Source: Paratrimastix pyriformis (Eukaryota > Preaxostyla > Paratrimastigidae). Taken from it: 64,000 bases of DNA. Positions within the stretch are counted from its first letter, which is position 1. Each line of letters starts with the position of its first letter. Both the position numbers and the translations under genes were made by a program. Under the pieces are notes generated by a model. It made no database searches. It was not told where the DNA came from and saw only the letters and a list, made by a program, of their open reading frames with translations. Location of the stretch: contig JAPMOS010000078.1 of NCBI GenBank assembly GCA_027972325.1, positions 1 through 64,000 of the forward strand, given 5' to 3'. Positions 4,522 through 60,020 of the stretch are shown here, in pieces.

Positions 4522-5620
4522 ATGAACTCGATCGATTGGAACCAGTTCCACACCCCCCAAGAAGCCATTGAGGTATTGCGGGGGTGCGATCGGCCAGGAC
4601 CCCCAAATGAGCCGAGGGTTACCAGGCGATCAATTGGTTTGTTTTACTCGCTCCTCGTTTTCCCGAAACTTGTTGTCATAGCTTCCGTCGACGCCTCTCC
4701 TCCCTCACCCAGCCGTTGGGCGCGGGGCTCATGACGCCCTACCATCTGGAGCTGATTCGACAGACTTTTGACGGCCTTTTCCGGCCGTCCTCACCTGATT
4801 CCGCCGGTAAAGACCTCCTCCTCGACATCGGTGGGGAGGACGAGCCCGAACGCGAGGAGCCCTCGTCCGTATTTGCATCGCACCTCCGGCTCGGTGCTAA
4901 ATTCGTTCTTTGTTAGGTCTCCGCCCCCGCCACGCACACCGCACCAGGAGCGCCCCTGCCCCGACCCCTACCGCCCCGAAGGCCCCGACCGCCCCGACCC
5001 CGGCCGTCCGACGACGCCCGCCTCTGGCGCCGTCGAGCACAAGGACAAGGGAACTGGAGCCGCTCGGCCGTCTGTCGGAGCGGGTTCTGGCCTTTCCCAG
5101 CTGATTCTTTTGGATTTCAGAATCCTGGACGACGATGATGTGCCGAGCCCGCCCAAGCCCAAGAAGGCGGCCCCGGCGGCCGCCAAGCCCAAGAAGGATC
5201 GCGAGGCCCCGAAGAAGGCAAGAAGGCGGCCCCGGTGGCCGCCAAGTCCAAGGAGGCCGCCAAGGAGGCGAAGGCCGCGGCCCCGGCCCCCGCCACCGGC
5301 CCGCCGGAAGCCTGGGCCGCCTCATGAGGCCAAGGAGGCTGCGGAGGCGAAGGGCTCGGACGACGCCCCCAGGAGGACGCCAGGCCGCGGCACCGGCACA
5401 AGCACCCGGCCCCAGTGGAGATCTCCTCCTCGTCGTCGGACGAGGGCGGCCGTGCCCCGAACCCAAGGCGAAGGCCGAGCGCAAGCGGGCCCGGCCGACC
5501 GACCCGGACGACTTCTCCCGGAGGCCGCTCGCCAAGTACTGCAGTCCGTCGTTGATCTCGTCAATGCGTTGCGCGCCACCCTCCCTCCTCCCACCCCGCT
5601 CGCCAAGTAATGCAGTCCGT
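4522..5620 (+). other. Leader and Pro/Lys/Ala-rich section of the virus-like element
   Basis: An ATG at 4,522 directly follows a pyrimidine-rich TTTTCAG. The first codons read MNSIDWNQFHTPQEAIE. Further on, the translation is rich in Pro, Ala, Lys and Arg, and a near-duplicate pair of CTCGCCAAGTA...TGCAGTCCGTCGTTGAT segments occurs around 5,530-5,640. The low-complexity character resembles a Gag-like or linker region, but I see no zinc knuckle and cannot assign a domain. This is the least certain part of the element. Confidence 0.3.
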
Positions 5621-50100: not shown

Positions 50101-53100
50101 TGGAGGACAGAGCCCGGAAATGGGTGTGAGAGATGGGTGTGAGAGAGGGACGGAAGGGGACGGGGGATCCCCCCGGGTTAGAGCCGCAATGAGGAGCTTT
50201 TTTGCAAACTCATATCGGGCTATTGGGGGGTTGCCATTTGAAGGATTCTTTGTTCTTTGTCTTGTGATCTTTTGCATCTTGTTTTTGTTTTTCTCTTTTT
50301 GCCGCTGGCCTGCGGGATATAAAAAAGGCAAAGGATTGATGAGGATATATTGTGGAAAACTGAAAAACCAATGGAAATCGATTGAAAGAATTACGAAGAA
50401 TACTGCGTGCAGAGTAAGACATTACAAAGTCAGGGAAGGCTTCGCGGAAAGGAAAGTTGGGGTTGTTCACAATGGAAAAAACGGTCTTGAAATCTTGGAC
50501 TTGCCCAGAAAAACGGAACGTAGAGATGGAGAAAAGCATGTTGCGTGGTGGATTAGGACGAAAAGAAAGGAGTGGGACGGAATGCGAAATTATCCATTGA
50601 AAAAAGTGGGAGATGGTTGCCGGTCATTGATAAAGAAAGCTATCTTGAGAGAGCCGAAATGGAAGAGGAGAAGATCCAAAAAAAGGGGAAAAGAAGCTAT
50701 AAGAAGAATAAACAAGATAAGGCAAGGACGAAACCAGGATATCTTGAAGACCTCTAATGAATGGTTGCAGAAAGTGTGGAGATGTCTCTGGTGGGCTCTT
50801 GAAGGTAATCAGAGGATGAGGGAGTCGTTTCAAAAAACAATTCAGGAATCTTCAAAAGGCATCCGTTCGTGGATGGAATGTTGGTCGTATTCTAAACGCG
50901 ACGGAAATGCTCAGAGGATGGTTTGGGGATGGAAGGATGTGGTGGGGAATTTGTGTGGTGGCTGGTGCCAGAGGGAGTGGTGGTTGTCTGTTTTGAAGTG
51001 TGGAAGTTTTTTGGCAAATTTGTGGGAAATTTTCCTCGGAAACTGCGGGGTGAAAATTCAGAAATGGATCCCGCGTTTTTCCTGTATAAAAGGGGCGCCA
51101 ACTTTGGTCTTTCAAACAATTTTTGCTGTGATGGAAGATTCAAACCCACCACCACCGCGGGCTGTGAAAATTGTGTCGACAACGCCTCAAGATGCGCTGG
51201 CTATGGCTGAGTCAAGAATTCGTGATTTGGAGGAGGCCATCCCTAATGGCCAATTCTTCTTTCTCTGGGGTGAGAAGGCTCACACTCTCTATTGTCGAGT
51301 TGAAGGAGGAGGTGTCAATGTGCCTGAAGTTGCACGGCTGATTGGGATCAAGGGTGCTGCTCAAGTCGTTGAGCTGTCTGATGAGCAGTTCGAACGTGAA
51401 CGTGCACTCCTTATGGCAAGGCATGAACATCAGAATGAAAATTCACGGGCGAAGATTTTGGCCCACATGGAGGTTGCAAAACTGGCAGCTGCGGTCTGGA
51501 ATTTTTTCTGTTGGATGAATCCTGACTTGTCGATAGCCTCTCACTGGAGCGCTCTCGGATCTCTTGCGGAGAACGGCCATCCCAGGAGGCAAAATCCTGG
51601 TCTGGCCTCCGAAGGCCATGCCTTCGGGGGGGGACATTGTTGCGATCACTGTCCCCTTCGCAGTGATTGCCCCCCCCCAGGTGATTGGCGAGGTTGCGAA
51701 GCTCCTGCCTCGGGTTCTGCCGCCGCCGTCGCAAGTCCCAATCAGATACACTGCACCGGATACAACCCTACCGACGTGGTGGATCCACGGGGTCCCTCTG
51801 AACGTATCAGAAGATGCAATCAAAACCAGGATGGGCGAGCTCGGCATTCCGATCGAGTCTGTGGAAAGAATCAAGGAGCCTACCAGCAATTTACCTACGT
51901 CTCAAGTCAGGGTCACGGTGACCACCCAGGAGGTGTGGGACCGGCTGAGGGCTCTTGGGAAGTTTATCGACGGGCTCAGTGTAAAGGCCGAACGCAAGAG
52001 AGGCCCCGCCCCGTTTGTTCGTGGTCTCGATTGATGAAGAAGAGCGGATTGGACGCCTTTGGGGGTGATGTGGGGAAATTTATGGTGAAGGTTGGAGGGG
52101 TGTGCTTGAATGAAGCAGGGGGGGATGAGCTAAATTGGATTGAAAAGCGAAATGGGTGTGGACGGTTTGGGGTCAATAGTCGAGGGGGTGAAGTGGCAGT
52201 CGAATATGGATGGATTTGTGTTGGGAGTGCAGGGGGCGGAGCTGGTCAGAGCGAGGATGGGAAGAATAGAGGGGGGGCTGGCGTCATGGAGCCTGGGTAC
52301 TGTGGGATAACTAATTCCACCGGCCATCGTTGCTATATCACTGCTGCAATTCAAGCAGCAGAAGTGATAGTTGATAGTGGTTTGAGGCTTTTTGATACTA
52401 TTCGAAAGGGAGGGATTGATTGGTCGACTCAGAATAAGGTTTGGGTTGAGGATGTTGCTTGTAAATTTGATGAATACCATGACGGCGAGGCTGGGGAAGC
52501 ACTTATAAAGATGCTGGACATATATGCTGGGGGGAGGAGGACGACAGTAGAGGATGGATCGTTGTCTGGGATCTCAAGCTGGGGGTAAGGAATGTGGTGC
52601 TGTGGTGGAGCATCCTAGGGTGCTAGAGAGAGTGTGTCTTCAAGCAGCCTGGGCAGGGAATCGGATGAGTGAGATGATAAACGAATTGGAAAAGATTGAG
52701 CGGATTGAAGTGAATTGTCCCATTTGTGAGAAAAATACAAGTCATGAAAGATCTAGCATGATTGTGGAGGCGGAGGATTTTGTTTTGATTGAGGTTGTTC
52801 GCAATAAGTATGTAGGTCAAGGGGCGTGGGAAGTTGTGGCGGATGAGATAAGAATTGGTGGGGAAAGGTATCTTCCGGTTGCCTTCATGAGCTTCTTAGG
52901 TAGGAGGAAAGGGAAACCTCGACATTGGGTTTGTCAAAAGAAGATTGAGGGGGAGTGGTGGACTTTCAATGACTCATTATGTGCCCCAACAACAAGAGAG
53001 GAGATGGGACAAGGGGATATTTTTGTTTATTCGAAAAATGGTATGTCATGTACGAAAATGGAGAAATCATTTTGTGGGCCGGCATTTGGAAGAGTGGGCC

Positions 53101-56100
53101 TGAATGCGAGTGCAAGTGTCGCTTTTGGGGGGAAGGGTCTCGAAAAATTAGGAGGTTGGGAGAAGCGCGAAGGAAGAACATAGTTAGTAGGGGATGATCC
53201 AGCAAGTGAGAAATGAGAGGGTTGGAATAAGCCCCTTCAAGGACTGAAGAAGGGCAAAGAGTTTTGTACTAAAAAGGGGTCGGCGGCTAGACGCTGATAC
53301 GAAGAAGGCAATAATGAATGAAATGATGGCGGAGAGAATTGTGGGGGTGACGGAAAAGAGTGAGAAGATAGAGAAAACGGCCCTCGTGATGGGGCTGGAG
53401 GAAAAGAGGGGAATTTATTTCGGGTAATGTCTTGGAATTGCCGGGGATTAGGAATGCTCGAGAAGAGGCAAAACGTGAAAATGATAGCTGAAGATAGTGG
53501 GGCGGACGTGATTATGCTCCAAGAAACAAAGCTTCACGTTGTGAAGACGTCGCTTTTGCTCGGAGTTTTGTTTCTTATGGAGCATGCGTTCGGAATGCAA
53601 ACGGAAAGGGTGGTGTGGTAATCATGGTGAAGAAAGAATTGCAAAACTCTGTGGTGGGTGTGGAGAAGGTGGCAGAATGTGAGGGATACTTGATGGTGGT
53701 GCATATGATTCTTAATAAAGTAAGGGTAGCCTTTGTAAATATGTATTATCCGGTAGATAGCAGTGAAGCTGAGATGAAAAGGAAGGTGGAGTTTGAGGGG
53801 AAAAGGATTATCGGTAAATTAAAGGAGGAGGGAGAGGTCATTGTGTTGGGGATGGACGGGAATGCAATGGTGAAGGAAGTGCAGAGGCTGAAGGGGTTAG
53901 ATCTCGTGGATTTAAGCGCGCTGGTTGGCCTTGAGGAGGCTGTAACAAGAAGGGAAGTGAGAGAAGGAGTGGTGCATGAAAATAAAATTGACGCGGTGTT
54001 GGGTTGTGAAGAAGTAGCTACGGAGCTGTTCATTAAAATGCAGATCTTCAGGAATGAAGAGGTGGAGTGGAATGCATTGTCGGATCACTCCATTATTTTT
54101 GTGGATTTTAGGAAAATTGCCAGAGGATACCGGCAATCGGTTGAAATTGAAAAGATCAAGTTACCTGGAGGTAGATCAGAAAGGAATGAGGAGACGGGGC
54201 GACAGATTGAAGAATATCAAGATAGAATGAAAAGGGCTAACCCGAAGGACTTTGGGGAATTGGCGAAAATGATGACGATGGAGGCAAAGAGTGCTTTCGG
54301 AGTAGTAAAAGTGGTATTGACTGAGAAAGATTATGAGCCTGCAAGGGTTAGGAAGGCGAGGGATGTGCTTCTTTCAGGTAAGGCTGGTGCGAGTGAGAAG
54401 GGGGTGGCGAAGAAGACGATTCAGGAATTTCGACAGAAAAGGAGGATAGCCCGGGAATATAATATTCGGCAGGTCTTGTCTGGGAGGAGGAGGCACTTTT
54501 ATCGAACGGTGTTCCAAGATGAAATGTTGAAATCTCCCGTGGCATCTTTTATGGAGAGAGGGGAGGGCGGGAAAATGAGGATAACGGTGGACCCTGGTGA
54601 AGTTAAGGAAGGATTTAGGTTGTTTATGGAGAACCTGGCCAAGAAAAGAGGTAATGATGAAATGTGCCCCATAGAGGAGTATCAGGAGAGAATTGATGGA
54701 ATTATGAAGCCAATCGAGATGGAAGAACTGATGAGTGTGATTCGGCACTTGAAGTCGGGCAAAGCTGCGGGACCAGATGAGGTGGTGGCAGAAATTGTTA
54801 AGGTTTGCCCGGATGAGGTCTTTGAATGGATGCTTAAGGAATATAATAGGATTCTGTGTGAGAGAAGGGTTCCAGATTATATGAAGCAAAGTAATGTTCA
54901 TATGATCATGAAGTCGGTGGAAGTTCATCCTGGTGACCCGACCAATCGGCGGCCGATTACCCTTATTTCGGTAACGTTGAAAATTCTTCAGTGTATTCTG
55001 GCTAATCGATTCCAGGAGAGAATTGCTGAGGTGGAAAGGAGTCATGGGGATAAGGTTTTCGAAGAAAAGCAGTTTGCATTTCTCAGAGGGAGACACATTG
55101 AGGTCCCCATTTTAAACCTGATCCGCGTGATTGAGGATGCGAAAATGCGTGGGAAGAAATGGTATATGCTTGGACTGGATATATCGAAGGCTTATGATAC
55201 GGTTGATTTCGCAGCGTTGGAAAGGGGAATGGTTGAGTTGGGATTGGAGAGAAGCTTCATCGAATACGTGAGGGATTTATATAAAGGTAGGAAGGCTCGT
55301 GTAATTACATCTTTTGGGCTCACTGAACCCTATGAGGTCCAAAGGGGAATCAGTCAGGAGACCCGCTGTCATGTTTGTTGTTTGTCACATTTATGGAAAC
55401 AATCCTGAGGAGGGTTCATGGAAGGGATATACTCTGGCAAGCCTTCGAGAAGTGTTGATTCAAGCGTTTGCTGATGATATTATTATTATCACTGAATCAA
55501 AGGAAGAGCTGATAAGAATTGGGAGTGAGGTGGTTGGGATGATACGAGAAGCGTATATGGATATTAATTTTAAGAAGTCAGACTATATGACAAATGATGA
55601 TGATAAGTCGGGGATCATAATTATGGGAGAGGAAGTGAAATGTAAGGCGAAGGGAGAAGGGATCAGGTATCTCGGGATTTGGATCGATGAAGAATTGCAC
55701 ATGAAAGTGAATTTTAGGAAGCTCTATGAGAAATTGGCGCAGAAGCTAACTCGAATTGGCGAAGCATACTTTCCGATGCAGGAATTGGGAAAAGTGATTA
55801 ACGAATGCGTGACGCCGTGTTTGCAATATATAGCTCGGAGCATGCCTCTCAGGAAGGTTGAGTTGGATGAGGTGGAGAAGTTGTACTCGAGGAAGATTAG
55901 GGAGGCATTAGGAAATCGTTTGAAAAAGTCGGACCCTGTTGACGTGGTTTATGTGATGAAGGAGAATGGCGGTTTGGGTGTGAAAAACCAACGGATGTGC
56001 ATGATCAGATAGTGGTGTTGCAGACGGCAAAAGAGTTGTAGATGATGATCGAATTGAGGGAAGATTCTGATGGAGGCGAGGGATGAGAAGAGAGAGAAGG

Positions 56101-59100
56101 AGAATACAACCTCTTGCTTGTTTAATGACCCGGAGCGATGGTCCCGAGGGGGGTGGCCATCTTTATAGAGCGAACCTTGGGTGCTTTTAGTAGACAAGGA
56201 GTACGGATGGAAGTTGGGAGATGGGAGGAAGGTAGCGCCTATGAGAATGATCAGGATTTGGGGACTTGATCACGATACCGAGGGGTCAAAGAAAGAGAAT
56301 GTTTGGGGAAGGATGGACGAGATTAAGCGATTTAGCCACGAGGGATGGTAAATTATTGAGATCACTGACAACTAAATCTGGTGGGAGTAAAGGGGGAATG
56401 TTCCTCGGTGGTACACGGAGCTGCTGAAAAGACTTGTATGCCAGGATACTCGAAGGTGTTGAAAAGACTGAAGAAAGAATATGCACTTGTGATGAAGGTC
56501 GTGGAGAATGGGGTGGGAGTGCAGGAGGAGCGCCAAAGGGCGTGTAATTTGGGTAGGATAGGAAAATCCCACTTCTTCACGGATGGATCTTCATGTAGAG
56601 AAGGAAAATGGTGAGAGGTTCATATGCGGTGATTGAAAATATAGATGGCAAGTTTGTGAAGAAGGAGGCAAAACGATCGCCGTGGCTAAATCAAACCAAT
56701 AACGAAGCGGAGCTTTATGCGGTTGTAAGAGCGCTGGAGATGGCGGGTGGGGTGATGTCCAAATTACTACTGATTCGAGGTATGCGATTTCTTGGGTTCA
56801 GAAGGTTGGGAAGGATAGAATGTCGTTGGGGAATTGGGGATAAAAAGAATGGGAGTGTACTTGTTCGACTGAAAAAGGTTGTGGATAATTATGTGGGGAA
56901 AATTGAAATGGTATGGGTAAAGGGTCATCAAACTGGAGATGCAGTGGATATTCGAGGGAATAATATGGCGGACTCTGAAGCTGGTGAGGCAAATAAATCT
57001 GAGAAAGTTGAAGACTGCAGTATGGAATTGGGTGTTATGCTGATCGGTCCAAGTGGCGAAAGAGTACAAGGTGACTATAAGACAAGATTGGCGAGGTGGC
57101 AGAATTGGAGAAAGCTAGAGGGGCTGGGAATGAAGACGAGGAATGCTGTTTTGATGATAAATGATAAGTCAGGAAATGCCGAGATGAACTGCTCTCGGTT
57201 TTGTAGAGAATGCTCGGCTGGGTGGCTTTTCGCAGCTTATTTCCAAAGGATTATGACTAAGGAAAACAAAGGCAATTCTTCGGTGGGGAGGAGTTGATGT
57301 GTACTTGTGGTCTGAAAGACACATTGGAACATGCAGTTTATGGGTGCTTAAGGGTGCGTGGGATTTGGAGGAGATGGTCCGGGAGATTGAAAGTGAAGCG
57401 GTCATTGAGAAATTGGCGAGGTGGGTGGAAGGACAGTCTCAGATGCTGGTGATGTGTCCTGAATATCTAGAGGTGCTCGAGGGGTGGGTGGGCTGAGAAA
57501 GAATGGCTTGGTAGTGCTGGGGAACGGAGGCACAATTTCCCAGGAGTGCATCTGGCTATTATATGAGAGGTGCCGACGGGAATTACTCTGGAGTAGCTGG
57601 GCTGAGTTAATGGTTGAACTGAGAAATGAAGTTTGCCGATTGGTTGGTCGGCATGGAGAAGATGGAATGGTGGGGGAGTGTGATACCATGGGACTTTTCG
57701 TTGATATGTGCGGAAGTCTTTTCGTTGAATATGATGCTCCTAAGTCACCCTGTGAGCGTGGATATGTCCTTTAGTGAATTCTGTACAGAGAATCGTAGTG
57801 ATATGTTTTTGGTGCTCGATTTGATAGTTTGGCTCAATTTGAAATGGACTATGATATGATGGCGTGTCTGAATGTGGATTTCTCCCTTGATGCGGAGATT
57901 GGTCGGAGGATATGGGAGGGAATTGGTCGGAGGGGAGGAAGAGTAGAGCATTCCGATGTGTAGTGGTGGTGGAACATGATGGCCGAGTGGTTAATTGGAA
58001 TGAGAAGGTTGGTATAGGACCTAGGGGGACGGGGGACGGGAAGCTTGTGATTGCAGAAATTTTAAAATGGATGAGAACACCTTCTCTTGCTGGCCGGGGA
58101 ACTTTTGGAGGACGGGGAAGAAATACGTCAGGCCGGTAAATCATGTTGTGAGTATAATTGTGTGTGACAATGTGGAAGCGAGGATGAAATATCCGGTGGT
58201 GGAAGGTGGGATGGAGAGGATCTATAATTGGCTGGTAAAGCCGAAATACCAGATGGCGGTCTGGGAGGGGTTCCGGACTGGATTTACTCAAGATGAAATT
58301 GGGTCAAAATTCGGTGGGAAGGTTCTAGTGGGAGGGGTGGAAAAGGCTTGTTTATGGGAGATGTTGTGCGGATTATACAAAGAAGACTGAGGGAATGCTG
58401 TAACTATAAGGAGAGTTGGTCGTTACAGACTCTCTATTCCGCGGCAGTTGGATTTTGGATGGGAGAACGGAGAAAGAGTGGCATCAGTTAGGGATCAGGA
58501 TTGGGATGAAAAGAATTCTGGAGAAACTTATTGAGGGAAGGAAGGAGGGAGTGGATCGAAGTTTGGAAAGTGGTGATGGTTTGAGTAGGAGGAAGCGTGG
58601 ACGGAATCGGTTAGGCGAGGTGGGGAAGAAGAAGAAGAAAGTGTGATGGGGAAGTGGGAACGATTGGTGGGGTTGTGGCGAGAATAATGGTTGGAGGGAA
58701 GGAATGGGATGTGCTGGATGATGATAATGATGAAGGTGAAGATACAACGGGGAGAGAAAAAGGCGGGATGGATGTGGGGGGGGAGAGGGTGGTGATGATG
58801 GGAAAGAAAGGTGGTGGGGGTGGGGACGGGGATGGAAGAAGAGGAATGATGAGGGAGACAGTAGCGTGTTACTTCGCTCAGAGAGTACTGAGTACTCTGT
58901 GAGCGGTGTATATGCCACTGTACCGTTGCCATGGACTCTACCTCCATGGCAATAGGTTTTAAAAACGGAAGGGGACGGAAGGGGACGGAAGGGACGGAAG
59001 GGACGGAAGGGGACGGAAGGGGACGGAAGGGGACGGAAGGGAAGGGGACGGAAGGGGACGGAAGGGGACGGGGGAAGGGACGGAAGGGGACGGAAGGGGA

Positions 59101-60020
59101 CGGAAGGGGACGGAAGGGGACGGAAGGGGACGGAAGGGGACGGAAGGGGACGGAAGGGGACGGAAGGGGACGGAAGGGGAGGTGGGAGGGGAGGTGGGAG
59201 GGAGGAGGCAGCATGTGGTGAAGGAATCTACCCGTCGCCCAGGCAGGCAGGGACGGACTTGCAGCGAGCAGGGCCTCCTGCAGGCCCGAACGGATCGCTT
59301 CGGGGAGCTGGGGCACGCTCAGGCCGCGAAGGGTCTGCACAGCATAACAAGAAGGATGGGATGTGTGTCAGACCAGAGAGAAAGGAACGCGAAATGGTGG
59401 TTCCCCGCAGACCTCCAGTGCCTCTGCATGGATGTCGATGGTCTCGTCCGGCGTCAGGAGCACCGCCAGGGTCTTGAGTAGGCTGTCCCGAGCGCAGTTG
59501 AGCTGGGCATGGCGAGGTGATGACTTTCAAAAGAACGTGGCGCCGCAGACCGCTTTCTGCTCCTCTGGGTTCGCCGCCGAGCTCAACGAGAGATAGTTCA
59601 CAAAGATACGCCCAAGGGCAGAACGAACGAACTCAAGCGTGCGAATGTACACAGATGTTTTCATCCCTGATTGGTGGAGGTGAGCGAGAGAAGCGCGTGA
59701 AGAGAGCGCAAACCTTGAATGCACCGAGTCAGAGCGACAGAGGCGCAATACAGAAGGGTGGCGCACGTGGAGAGGCAGGGGAGTGATTGGAAAAGCAGAT
59801 CCACGTTACGGTCGAGGATCCTCGCAAAATTTTCGAAAAAATCGGAGCAAATCTGTGTCTGTTCGGTTGGAACCCTCGTTTTCTCAACCAGAAGGTCCTT
59901 AACGAGTTGAATATTCCTCTTGAAAGTGGTCTGCGGAAAATCGCTAAAGATCATTTCAAAAAACTTGCGGCGGACCCCAATGAGGTCATCCTTTTTGCTG
60001 GGTGTCGCTTCGCTCGCCAT
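20772..60020 (-). CDS. UBR4/BIG/Pushover-type giant N-recognin E3 ubiquitin ligase, many exons
   Basis: This is the largest gene, about 39 kb with dozens of short exons. The N-terminus starts at ATG 60,020 (MASEATPSKKDDLIGVRRKF; an in-frame ATG at 60,080 is an alternative) and the stop is TTA at 20,772-20,774. Along its length the exons follow animal UBR4 in order: N-terminal helical repeats, UBR box (41.5-41.96 kb), a propeller-like region, UIM-like motif, ZZ finger, the TNHPNSYVYQTM / CAICSEPEIPFD block at 30 kb, the Cys cluster at 29 kb, the NPYSSKD and LDLPIGAVYEQVW blocks at 25 kb, and the hemiRING end. The family binds N-degrons and ubiquitinates cytosolic substrates. One intron (50,098-59,258) is enlarged by an antisense LINE. 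Neighbours are a sterol reductase upstream and an NTPase gene downstream, all on the minus strand. No clear inactivating change was noticed in the blocks checked. Confidence 0.93.
22798..24650 (-). repeat. UBR4 segment that was the source (or sister) of the 13.6-15.5 kb duplicate
   Basis: This part of the gene matches 13,645-15,490 at high identity across exons and introns. It sits in its proper UBR4 context on both sides, so it is the parental or retained copy. It carries an extra local tandem duplication (23,105-23,225) that repeats AATTGTTTCAACTTTGTGCC and the adjacent CATCTGTGTGGGTGTG, giving two candidate splice acceptors in a row. Confidence 0.9.
26749..26852 (-). repeat. 12-bp coding repeat in UBR4
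   Basis: About eight tandem copies of GCAGCAGGGGCC encode an (Ala-Pro-Ala-Ala)n tract inside an UBR4 exon, just before TPESRVLRHQRALSAHFLAR. The multiple-of-three unit keeps the frame. It lengthens a linker that is short in animal UBR4. Confidence 0.85.
28686..28756. repeat. GGGGTT tract and poly-G run in an UBR4 intron
   Basis: Six tandem GGGTTG units, readable as (GGGGTT)n, are followed by an uninterrupted run of about 35 G. On the transcribed strand this is C-rich pyrimidine sequence leading to the acceptor of the exon that starts near 28,500. Confidence 0.9.
28830..29190 (-). other. UBR4 Cys-rich zinc cluster
   Basis: Exons read LQCPRCSRSVPP, then HGVCKNCHENAYQCRQCRHI, then NYEQLDAFLCPQCGFCRYQK, ending in PIESEDGP. 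This matches the UBR4 block CPRCSASVP...[37 protein letters not shown]...PIENEED, with five CxxC pairs kept. The intron between the first two parts spans about 29,025-29,100. Confidence 0.92.
29293..29465. repeat. 10-bp minisatellite GGCGGTGGGT in an UBR4 intron
   Basis: About 17 perfect tandem copies of GGCGGTGGGT, followed by degenerate TGGTGG-rich sequence to about 29,560. It is non-coding and lies between the exons encoding the first Cys pair and the RLNRGE-type segment. Confidence 0.93.
31250..31530. repeat. TGGATGATGAT-type tract in an UBR4 intron
   Basis: Irregular tandem TGGATGATGATTGG units with TGCTGATGGTGC variants. The same family of tract recurs at 37,856-38,215, 38,525-38,715, 39,298-39,790 and, in weaker form, 46,455-46,565. 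Confidence 0.9.
33000..33185. repeat. 18-21 bp minisatellite GAAGAATGAGGGTGCCAT in an UBR4 intron
   Basis: About eight copies of GAAGAATGAGGGTGCCAT, some spaced by GGGA or TCCGGGGGACGAA. Non-coding. Confidence 0.9.
34040..34130 (-). other. UIM-like motif in UBR4
   Basis: The segment EEIDDEQAMALAMALSMQDG has the acidic patch, Ala and Ser spacing of a ubiquitin-interacting motif. It corresponds in position and sequence to DDETMVELAIALSLQQ of animal UBR4. It lies just C-terminal to the ZZ finger. Ubiquitin binding is inferred from the motif alone. Confidence 0.6.
34270..34415 (-). other. ZZ-type zinc finger in UBR4
   Basis: The translation DDYRCDGCGMAHIPPSEVHH followed by CTVCLDYDLCATC, then H-x-x-x-x-x-H, is a ZZ finger with C-x2-C, C-x2-C, C-x2-C and two His ligands. 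Plant BIG carries a ZZ domain at a comparable place between the UBR box and the C-terminal module; from memory, the human protein does not. ZZ fingers bind peptides such as histone H3 tails, SUMO or N-terminal Arg, so this may add a second ligand-binding site. Confidence 0.88.
36095..36139. repeat. (GT)n microsatellite in an UBR4 intron
   Basis: An uninterrupted GT run of about 22 units; on the transcribed strand it is (CA)n. Confidence 0.95.
37856..38215. repeat. ATGATGATTGG / GGGATGATAATT tract in an UBR4 intron
   Basis: Two related units follow each other: GGATGATGATT (37,870-38,030) and GGGATGATAATT with GGGATGACAATT variants (38,030-38,165). The second appears to be an expanded derivative of the first. 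Confidence 0.92.
38525..38715. repeat. GATGATGATCG tract in an UBR4 intron
   Basis: Tandem GGATGATGATCGGATGATGATGAGC units followed by TGCTGATGCTGATGC and GGATGATCGGATGATC units. Non-coding. Confidence 0.9.
39298..39790. repeat. Composite GATGATGACTG / GCTGAT / TTGGGTGAT array in an UBR4 intron
   Basis: Three higher-order blocks follow one another: GGATGATGACGACT units (to about 39,585), a pure GCTGAT run (39,585-39,640), TTGGGTGATGA units (to about 39,735), and a second GCTGAT run. It is the longest intronic array in the gene. Confidence 0.92.
41510..41959 (-). other. UBR4 UBR-box zinc finger (N-degron binding)
   Basis: Two exons (41,862-41,959 and 41,191-41,668) join in phase. They give LCTVTVTGPGNSAEQH, then CYFCYTC, LICSICARTCHRGHAL and RCTCLCGE. 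This matches the UBR-box pattern of UBR4 (LCTFTITQKEF...HCHTC...CTVCAKVCHKDHEIS...FCDCGA), with the Cys/His zinc ligands kept. The box recognises basic and related N-terminal residues. It is the strongest diagnostic domain of the gene. Confidence 0.92.
42028..42118. repeat. (ATC)n microsatellite in an UBR4 intron
   Basis: About 30 uninterrupted ATC units, followed by AACAGC and CACAGC units to 42,173. It lies just upstream of the exon leading into the UBR box. Confidence 0.95.
50318..50328 (+). promoter_or_regulatory. TATA-like box upstream of the LINE's first open frame
   Basis: TATAAAAAAGG lies about 20 bp before an ATG (50,339) that opens a long stop-free frame. The short spacing argues against it driving that exact ATG. 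It may be chance in A-rich sequence. Confidence 0.3.
50339..52034 (+). pseudogene. LINE ORF1 (with possible N-terminal extension)
   Basis: The clear ORF1 starts at 51,131 (MEDSNPPPPRAVKIVSTT) and ends with TGA at 52,032-52,034. Its C-terminal half contains PTWWIHGVPLNVSEDAIKTR, VERIKEP and QVRVTVTTQEVWDRLRAL, an RRM-like fold as in many LINE ORF1 proteins. One frame change lies near 51,570 (frame 2 to frame 3). Upstream, the same frame is open without a stop from at least 50,339 to 51,131, with a Lys/Arg/Trp-rich translation. In such A-rich DNA this length is unlikely by chance and may be an N-terminal extension. The stop overlaps the next start as TGATG. Confidence 0.65.
51085..51093 (+). 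promoter_or_regulatory. TATA box before LINE ORF1
   Basis: TATAAAAGG is a consensus TATA box 38 bp before the ATG at 51,131 (MEDSNPPPPRAVKIVSTT). A start site about 30 bp downstream would give a very short leader. LINEs usually carry internal promoters without a TATA box close to the ORF, so this is notable. Function is inferred. Confidence 0.45.
52034..53183 (+). pseudogene. LINE-encoded USP/UCH-like (C19) cysteine protease
   Basis: The ORF begins at ATG 52,034, overlapping the ORF1 stop. A Cys box GYCGITNSTGHRCYITAAIQ carries the candidate nucleophile codon at 52,331-52,333. A mid region ECGAVVEHPRVLERV and a zinc-ribbon half CPICEKNTSHERS follow. Then come FVLIEVVRNK, YLPVAFMSFLGRRK, and a His box PRHWVCQKKIEGEWWTFNDS with His at 52,922-52,924 and Asn-Asp at 52,968-52,973. 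These match the order Cys, CxxC, QxxHYxxYxx, W..FDD of ubiquitin-specific proteases, and the triad is present. One frame change near 52,560 separates the Cys half from the His half. The expected role would be deubiquitination or polyprotein-type cleavage; this is inference. Confidence 0.7.
53427..57350 (+). pseudogene. LINE ORF2: endonuclease, reverse transcriptase, RNase H, zinc knuckle
   Basis: Endonuclease: MSWNCRGLG, IMLQETKL, FVNMYYPVD, VIVLGMDGNA and ALSDHSIIFVDF (53,427-54,115). Reverse transcriptase: GKAAGPDEVVAEIVK, NRRPITLISVTLKILQ, FAFLRGRHIEVPILN, GLDISKAYDTVDF, GDPLSCLLF and QAFADDIIIIT (about 54,740-55,500). RNase H: FFTDGSS, NNEAELYAVVRALE, TTDSRYAISWVQK and NNMADSEAGEA (56,575-56,990), all four acidic residues kept. 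A CTCGLKDTLEHAVYGC knuckle lies near 57,299-57,346. Frame changes occur near 53,620, 55,360, 55,420, repeatedly in 56,000-56,610, near 56,770 and near 57,290, so it is not functional. Confidence 0.9.
57484..58390 (+). pseudogene. Extra C-terminal domain of the LINE, shared with the 13-kb LINE fragment
   Basis: After the knuckle, broken frames encode CIWLLYERCRRELLWSSW, VFSLNMMLLSHPV, FCTENRSDMF, GARFDSLAQFEMDYDMM, RAFRCVVVVEHDG and CWPGNFWRTGKKYVRP, ending in a stop at 58,388-58,390. Each piece aligns in order with the 13,020-13,640 fragment (FWKLFRRYRQGALKKGKSWE, FGLNSMLFCHPGN, YCTPAKEDEVFGARFDGL, RAMRCVMVIPY, FKFWRANFW). The 13-kb copy has W-A-TP and NPEY, which recalls the W-TP...NPPY pattern of Dam-like adenine methyltransferases. 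This copy has N-V-D-F at that place. The methyltransferase reading is tentative; the shared domain is not. Confidence 0.6.
58391..58881 (+). other. LINE 3' region, no gene
   Basis: A-rich and G-rich sequence after the last LINE ORF, with a GGAGAGGGTGGTGATGATGGG-like purine stretch. No further coding block is recognised. Confidence 0.5.
58882..58952. other. Pair of hairpins at the LINE/host boundary
   Basis: AGAGTACT-G-AGTACTCT (58,882-58,898) and TTGCCATGGA-7 nt-TCCATGGCAA (58,926-58,952) are perfect inverted repeats. They lie between the LINE 3' end and the GGGGACGGAA array. They may be the LINE 3' stem-loop or belong to the host intron. Confidence 0.55.
58968..59195. repeat. 10-bp minisatellite GGGGACGGAA in an UBR4 intron
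   Basis: About 20 tandem GGGGACGGAA units with a few 8-9 bp variants, ending in GGTGGGAGGGGAGGTGGGAGG. Confidence 0.93.
59259..60020 (-). other. UBR4 N-terminal exons 1-4
   Basis: Four exons can be placed: 59,714-60,020, 59,551-59,666, 59,413-59,502 and 59,259-59,334. Frame is kept across each junction. The donors read GTTTGC, GTCTGC, GTCTGC and GTCCGT. The protein reads RKFFEMIFSDFPQTTFKRN, then SALGRIFVNYLSLSSAAN, then LLKTLAVLLTPDETIDIHAE, then LRGLSVPQLPEAIRSGLQ. These are helical-repeat sequence comparable in position to the N-terminus of animal UBR4. The start lies about 190 bp from the stop of the upstream sterol reductase gene. Confidence 0.75.

Follow-up and report, generated by a model that had tools for sequence, protein, structure and literature searches.

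Can a long interspersed nuclear element (LINE) carry its own deubiquitinase? The question is raised by a 64,000-nucleotide stretch of the Paratrimastix pyriformis genome (contig JAPMOS010000078.1, positions 1 to 64,000, forward strand; hereafter the window), in which an initial annotation, made from the sequence alone, placed a protease of the ubiquitin-specific protease (USP; peptidase C19) type between ORF1 and the endonuclease and reverse transcriptase of a LINE (52034-53183). Comparison of copies and structure modelling together establish a predicted USP domain, its place in the element and its conservation within one genome, and we are nearly certain that a USP-fold domain resides inside this LINE. 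As a whole, the explanation that we favour and consider probable is that the block is a genuine C19 domain, forms the N-terminal module of ORF2 and protects the element in cis. The host is a free-living metamonad whose genome (56.6 Mb, 633 scaffolds, 60.9% GC) was obtained from nanopore and Illumina reads, and the main text of the paper describing it holds no word starting with "transpos" (PMC10703272).

A predicted USP domain in ORF2

The Cys box, CxxC motif, His box and following Asn-Asp described in the initial annotation are all present, in the order given there. The N-terminal half of the block (52034..52588; all window features lie on the plus strand) contains the start of ORF2, the Cys box YCGITNSTGHRC (52298-52333), which ends in the codon of the predicted nucleophile Cys (52331..52333), and a QQD-like box, HDGEAGEAL (52478-52504). 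The C-terminal half (52551..53183) is read in another frame, because near 52551 this copy differs in length from another in a way that breaks the frame, and holds zinc-type Cys, the His box PRHWVCQ (52917-52937; predicted catalytic His codon 52923..52925) and FNDS (52965-52976), whose Asn, the predicted third catalytic residue, is followed by Asp (52968..52973). In the copy L004, also recorded as L032 (contig C478), the whole block lies inside a single open reading frame (ORF) of 597 amino acids (aa). The zinc-type Cys are encoded at 52563-52565, 52593-52595, 52716-52718 and 52725-52727, the latter two in CPIC (52716-52727); the initial annotation listed neither the QQD-like box nor the further Cys pair at 52563-52565/52593-52595, and with that pair the zinc ribbon may be complete rather than half.

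Neither window half gave a significant C19 match in Pfam, so that the first check proposed in the initial annotation is, taken literally, negative, and taken alone the halves would suggest that the assignment is not supported; divergent copies were therefore needed. In these, the UCH profile (PF00443, cut-off 23.9 bits) scored 30.8 bits on the copy L030 and 27.9 on P0002, a database protein derived from a second LINE lineage, and stayed beneath the cut-off on five related-copy ORFs. A genome scan with PF00443 yielded 61 rows above the cut-off, 18 of which coincided with LINE copies when paired by eye. The predicted fold is that of a USP (thumb-palm-fingers), with a structural match over ~235 residues to proteins including the catalytic domains of USP46, USP12, USP15 and USP2 (10-21% identity in the listed alignments). 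The USP-type reading is supported by these profile scores and this fold, and the Cys half is assigned from its motif, position and predicted fold. Ulp1 and OTU were not among the 50 fold matches listed, which by itself excludes nothing, and Ulp1 had no Pfam match on the scanned ORFs of the window and related copies. Josephin, the best sub-threshold match on the second window half (0.066), was under the cut-off wherever it appeared.

Conservation among copies in the genome

Searches of a 56.06-Mb assembly of 495 contigs (the window contig being C472) returned at least 108 matches to 52034-52588, at least 151 to 52551-53180 and at least 163 to the query P0001, lower bounds that count matches rather than copies, since some copies give two or more. 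The photosynthesis marker PF00504 had no match. Among the matches listed for P0001, residues 1-241 were covered without a stop in at least 25. Catalytic positions were scored by tblastn at 31 loci, or 30 places given that L004 and L032 are the same; the Cys was conserved in 30, the His in 29, the Asp/Asn in 29 and the following Asp in 30, each residue being read from the best-scoring piece at a locus, which may mix copies within it. L008, L023 and L026 have gaps at the positions missed, whereas L005 and L022 have different residues there; by eye, all five are frame-broken. Alignments were built for 13 loci (A1) and 12 loci (A2); all 12 rows of A2, L030 among them, share the Cys, the His, the second Asp and the four zinc-type Cys, and in L015, outside A2, Arg replaces one zinc-type Cys. 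Other copies thus keep the block with its Cys, His and Asp/Asn, and related copies give C19 matches above the cut-off, so that neither of the findings named in the initial annotation as refuting it applies to the family.

Nei-Gojobori dN/dS ratios ranged from 0.07 to 0.29 in 23 pairs with dS <0.3, drawn from 18 sequences chosen by pattern from the 31 loci and confined to pairs with more than 15 differences, the pairs not being independent of one another. The window family was too uniform for this analysis, and L019 and L027 were dropped for internal frame changes. Judged by these ratios, the USP block has probably been kept under purifying selection.

A number of observations weigh against the explanation favoured here. 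In Pfam, the first window half gave nothing, the second only the sub-threshold Josephin match and one to UCH (0.14), and L032 a non-significant UCH match (0.25); the hmmscan matches to UCH span only the C-terminal, His-bearing part of the profile. Two structure models reached a mean pLDDT of 61 and 67, a moderate confidence that is lower in the Cys half (block means 47-71 in the first, 44-79 in the second); as their alignments have rows in common, they do not count as independent. The canonical USP Cys box is NxGNTC; here, by eye, the Asn expected at the oxyanion hole stands one residue further from the Cys and is absent in L030, with an Asn-Cys spacing similar to that in the TssM alignment. 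The first Cys pair of the window family is C-x9-C, not CxxC. Many copies are decayed, the window copy is frame-broken in ORF1, USP, endonuclease and reverse transcriptase, and the 20 stretches taken from the 108 matches were picked mainly for long frames; the possible mixing of copies in the residue counts belongs here too. Higher dN/dS values were found for the closely similar pair L016-L028 (0.38, on nine changes) and for pairs with the dropped L019 or L027 (0.51-2.13). In a further lineage, L033, the His box matched at E 0.002 and the Cys box was seen by eye (E 1.8). Finally, protein and IMG/VR searches revealed no relative outside P. pyriformis: a search of 5.8 billion proteins with region 350-640 of the L010 ORF had none at E 0.01, the USP of L030 retrieved one match, from P. 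pyriformis itself, the A2 profile two, both from P. pyriformis (best 7993 candidates scored), and A1 none in IMG/VR, all by methods that need shared short words and may miss distant relatives.

Organization of the window LINE

The whole copy spans approximately 50160..58965 (~8.8 kb), with both edges placed from DNA matches: 11 other matches reaching the 5' edge begin at 50122-50186, and 58965 is the end point of 21 of 44 match rows. Its GC content is 47%, against 62% for the remaining window. The LINE setting proposed in the initial annotation was confirmed by RVT_1 and RNase_H matches in the window and Exo_endo_phos matches in related copies, and the order within ORF2 is USP, basic linker, endonuclease, reverse transcriptase, RNase H and C-terminal extension. 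With an APE endonuclease and a reverse transcriptase in one element, this is an APE-type LINE.

ORF1 (51131..52034) comprises a first part from the ATG at 51131 and a second in another frame (51537-52034), the C-terminal stretch of which resembles an RNA recognition motif by eye. Its stop overlaps the ORF2 ATG in TGATG (52032..52036). The same arrangement, in which an open ORF1 leads up to the overlap and ORF2 runs uninterrupted as far as the Cys box, occurs at five of eight window-family places (L001, which is the window, L002, L003, L004/L032 and L007; not L005, L006 or L008) and is suggestive of stop-restart translation of ORF2 in this family. In other families, upstream TGATG or TAATG sites were not preceded by an ORF1-like frame; such coupling was seen in the window family alone and we therefore make no general claim for it.

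The APE-type endonuclease (approximately 53421..54110) was delimited from motifs by eye, with MSWNCRGLG...QETK in one frame and the rest, including SDH at 54080, in the frame of the ORF 53498-55408; the Pfam scan of the window ORF gave no endonuclease match. Reverse transcriptase matches (PF00078, E 1.3e-10 and 8.5e-9) span 54938..55685 and fall in two different frames, those of the ORFs 53498-55408 and 55305-56012, with AFADDI at 55464-55481. An ORF at 56599..57297 carries RNase H (PF00075, E 6.4e-8), and the last stretch of the C-terminal extension (58025..58390) was recognized from its resemblance by eye to the C-terminal ORF of L029, which had no Pfam match. By eye, the extension after RNase H looks alike in two LINE lineages (window 58025-58390, L029 1627-2718). 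In the copies, the APE endonuclease lies N-terminal to the reverse transcriptase; a C-terminal restriction-like endonuclease (RLE) was not specifically searched for. General Pfam scans of the window and related-copy ORFs detected no integrase family, long terminal repeats not having been searched for.

Abutting the 3' end are 22 copies of the 10-bp unit ACGGAAGGGG (58965..59180), and similar units occur at the 5' edge (~50149-50166). Either the LINE was inserted into such repeats or reverse transcription itself added the units as a repeat tail.

Related lineages in P. pyriformis

Other copies display the modules together. L009 is a single 1820-aa ORF matching UCH, Exo_endo_phos and RVT_1, and in L010 (C471), for which the search reported an open frame of 2365 aa, 2024 aa hold UCH, endonuclease, reverse transcriptase (RVT_1 1.1e-31) and the beginning of RNase H. 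Exo_endo_phos matches on related copies were below the cut-off (E 5.5e-5 to 5.6e-3), save that on L033, which was above it (5.2e-10), and RNase_H matched L029 at 1.3e-13. The L1 ORF2p and R2 proteins were among 10 solved reverse transcriptases matched.

Between the window and L009-L012, endonuclease-reverse transcriptase identity is 34-35%, the L030 endonuclease is ~32% identical to that of L009-L012, and L033 ranges from 26 to 44% by partner and segment. As the USP of other lineages is 22-35% identical to that of the window family, both parts differ strongly between lineages and appear to have co-diverged. Acquisition of the USP probably predates the split between those LINE lineages of this genome that bear it. 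The data do not point to a recent capture from a present host gene, since no host UCH rows from the PF00443 scan were among the LINE-USP matches listed for P0001.

In L033, USP pieces apparently in three frames precede an intact endonuclease-reverse transcriptase ORF. These pieces lie at ~4554-5192 (minus strand) beside the 1495 aa of that ORF, a contrast that could reflect assembly errors or a decay that has affected the USP alone. L034, of another LINE clade with a reverse transcriptase match and an endonuclease seen by eye, gave USP matches of E 0.28 at best across 8.6 kb. In L034 (C484, 1-6300) a very long run of GC-rich tandem repeats, open in several frames of both strands, precedes the LINE and shares its reading frame.

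Some of these sequences have entered public databases. P0002 (PAPYR_11614), 97% identical to part of the second LINE lineage, is a gene model in which a portion of the USP is fused to a portion of the endonuclease, under the label "USP domain-containing protein"; annotators should be warned, and host deubiquitinase counts may therefore be inflated. Another public gene model, P0003 (PAPYR_10970), also matches the LINE USP.

Possible roles of the domain

USPs remove ubiquitin and as a family cut after its C-terminal tail. LINE proteins are present in small amounts, and the ubiquitin-proteasome system can target them. Intact copies, such as L010 or L012, quite likely encode an active isopeptidase, and the module suggests that the LINE interferes with the cell's protein-disposal system. 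Tethered to the endonuclease and reverse transcriptase, the USP would act mainly on whatever is bound to the ORF2 protein (ORF2p), namely ORF2p itself, the ORF1 protein (ORF1p), the ribonucleoprotein or target chromatin. During ribonucleoprotein formation and copying it would strip ubiquitin in cis from ORF2p, ORF1p and their neighbours, and the large polyprotein would thereby escape proteasomal destruction. We infer ubiquitin binding, activity and protection, and rate protection in cis as the main role at slightly short of an even prospect. Of the two functions put forward in the initial annotation, protection from ubiquitin-dependent turnover is the one favoured here, and processing of the polyprotein has gained no positive support.

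The chief rival to protection of element proteins is action at the insertion site, where the USP would clear ubiquitin from histones or PCNA-type factors and so aid target-primed reverse transcription, a role that we regard as possible though rather unlikely. The USP shares its ORF with the endonuclease and reverse transcriptase and would hence be delivered to the nick, and the Ginger paper suggests that transposon Ulp1 and OTU domains may activate DNA-repair factors (PMC2836005). The fold matches include Ubp8 of the SAGA complex, but only as one of many USPs, and such matches do not separate USP substrates. About equally doubtful is a broader proposal, in which an entire protist LINE clade has had the USP from its ancestor as an obligatory part and needs it for insertion itself, the tethered USP stripping ubiquitin at the insertion site from chromatin or repair factors or from the targets of a host restriction pathway.

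Cleavage of ORF2p or of ORF1-ORF2 products instead of ubiquitin is improbable. Processing would be useful in a USP that sits in the N-terminal part of an ORF as long as the 2365 aa on C471, before the basic linker, but the family's preference for ubiquitin's tail speaks against it. LRGG-like motifs were absent from the USP-endonuclease linkers of the 10 ORFs searched, which makes processing less likely, and occurred only elsewhere, inside the USP (L011, L012) or upstream of the Cys box (L010, L030); nor did Pfam report a ubiquitin-like domain on the scanned ORFs.

We give equally little credence to an inactive pseudo-USP whose sole function would be to bind ubiquitin or other proteins. The non-canonical Cys box would fit such a module, as would row 46 of the fold list, a tri-snRNP chain that we take to be the pseudo-USP USP39. 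Against this, the Cys, His and Asp/Asn-Asp are kept in 29-30 of 31 loci across lineages as divergent in their USP as those compared above, a degree of conservation that mere binding would not require.

That the block is an artefact, whether a decayed stretch that shows the motifs by chance or a fragment of a host USP gene beside one LINE, could draw on the non-significant Pfam scores of the window copy and its sister L032, but is already contradicted by the genome-wide matches, the same place before the endonuclease in several copies, the signature of purifying selection and the absence of host UCH rows among the matches listed, and merits almost no weight.

LINE lineages in which purifying selection maintains a deubiquitinase would provide genetic evidence for a limit set by ubiquitin on retrotransposition. 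If action at the insertion site proved true, ubiquitin would be a real battleground between host and retrotransposon.

Comparison with known systems

In the open-access literature on LINE proteases we found no USP family member in a LINE, and no open-access paper was found on retrotransposons of P. pyriformis. The domain shares with the USP/C19 deubiquitinases its predicted fold and the order of Cys box, QQD-like box, zinc-type Cys, His box and [DN]D, and differs in being short (~245 residues), in its non-canonical Cys-box spacing and in forming part of a LINE polyprotein. The closest parallels in LINEs are nematode NeSL families and one Utopia element, which have an N-terminal Ulp1-like protease (PMC4640811); here too a ubiquitin/SUMO-type cysteine protease lies on the N-terminal side of the LINE protein, but those elements are RLE-type, whereas the present one has a USP, with APE before the reverse transcriptase and RNase H after it, a combination of APE and RNase H that fits several LINE clades (PMC4640811). 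Deubiquitinase-type domains also occur in Ginger1 DNA transposons, which bear OTU or Ulp1, and in one Trichomonas vaginalis protein combining transposase_11 with Peptidase C19, mentioned in passing in the same source (PMC2836005); the latter likewise belongs to C19, and both are DNA transposons rather than LINEs. Helentrons carry conserved ORFs for an OTU-like cysteine protease (PMC4067079) and resemble the present element in pairing a mobile element with a conserved deubiquitinase-type protease, but are rolling-circle elements with the OTU family, in contrast to a LINE with a USP. The USP would join Ulp1 and OTU among the proteases of mobile elements, suggesting independent capture of a like function. 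A deubiquitinase-type protease in a mobile element is thus of an already known kind, and the addition is the USP family in a LINE.

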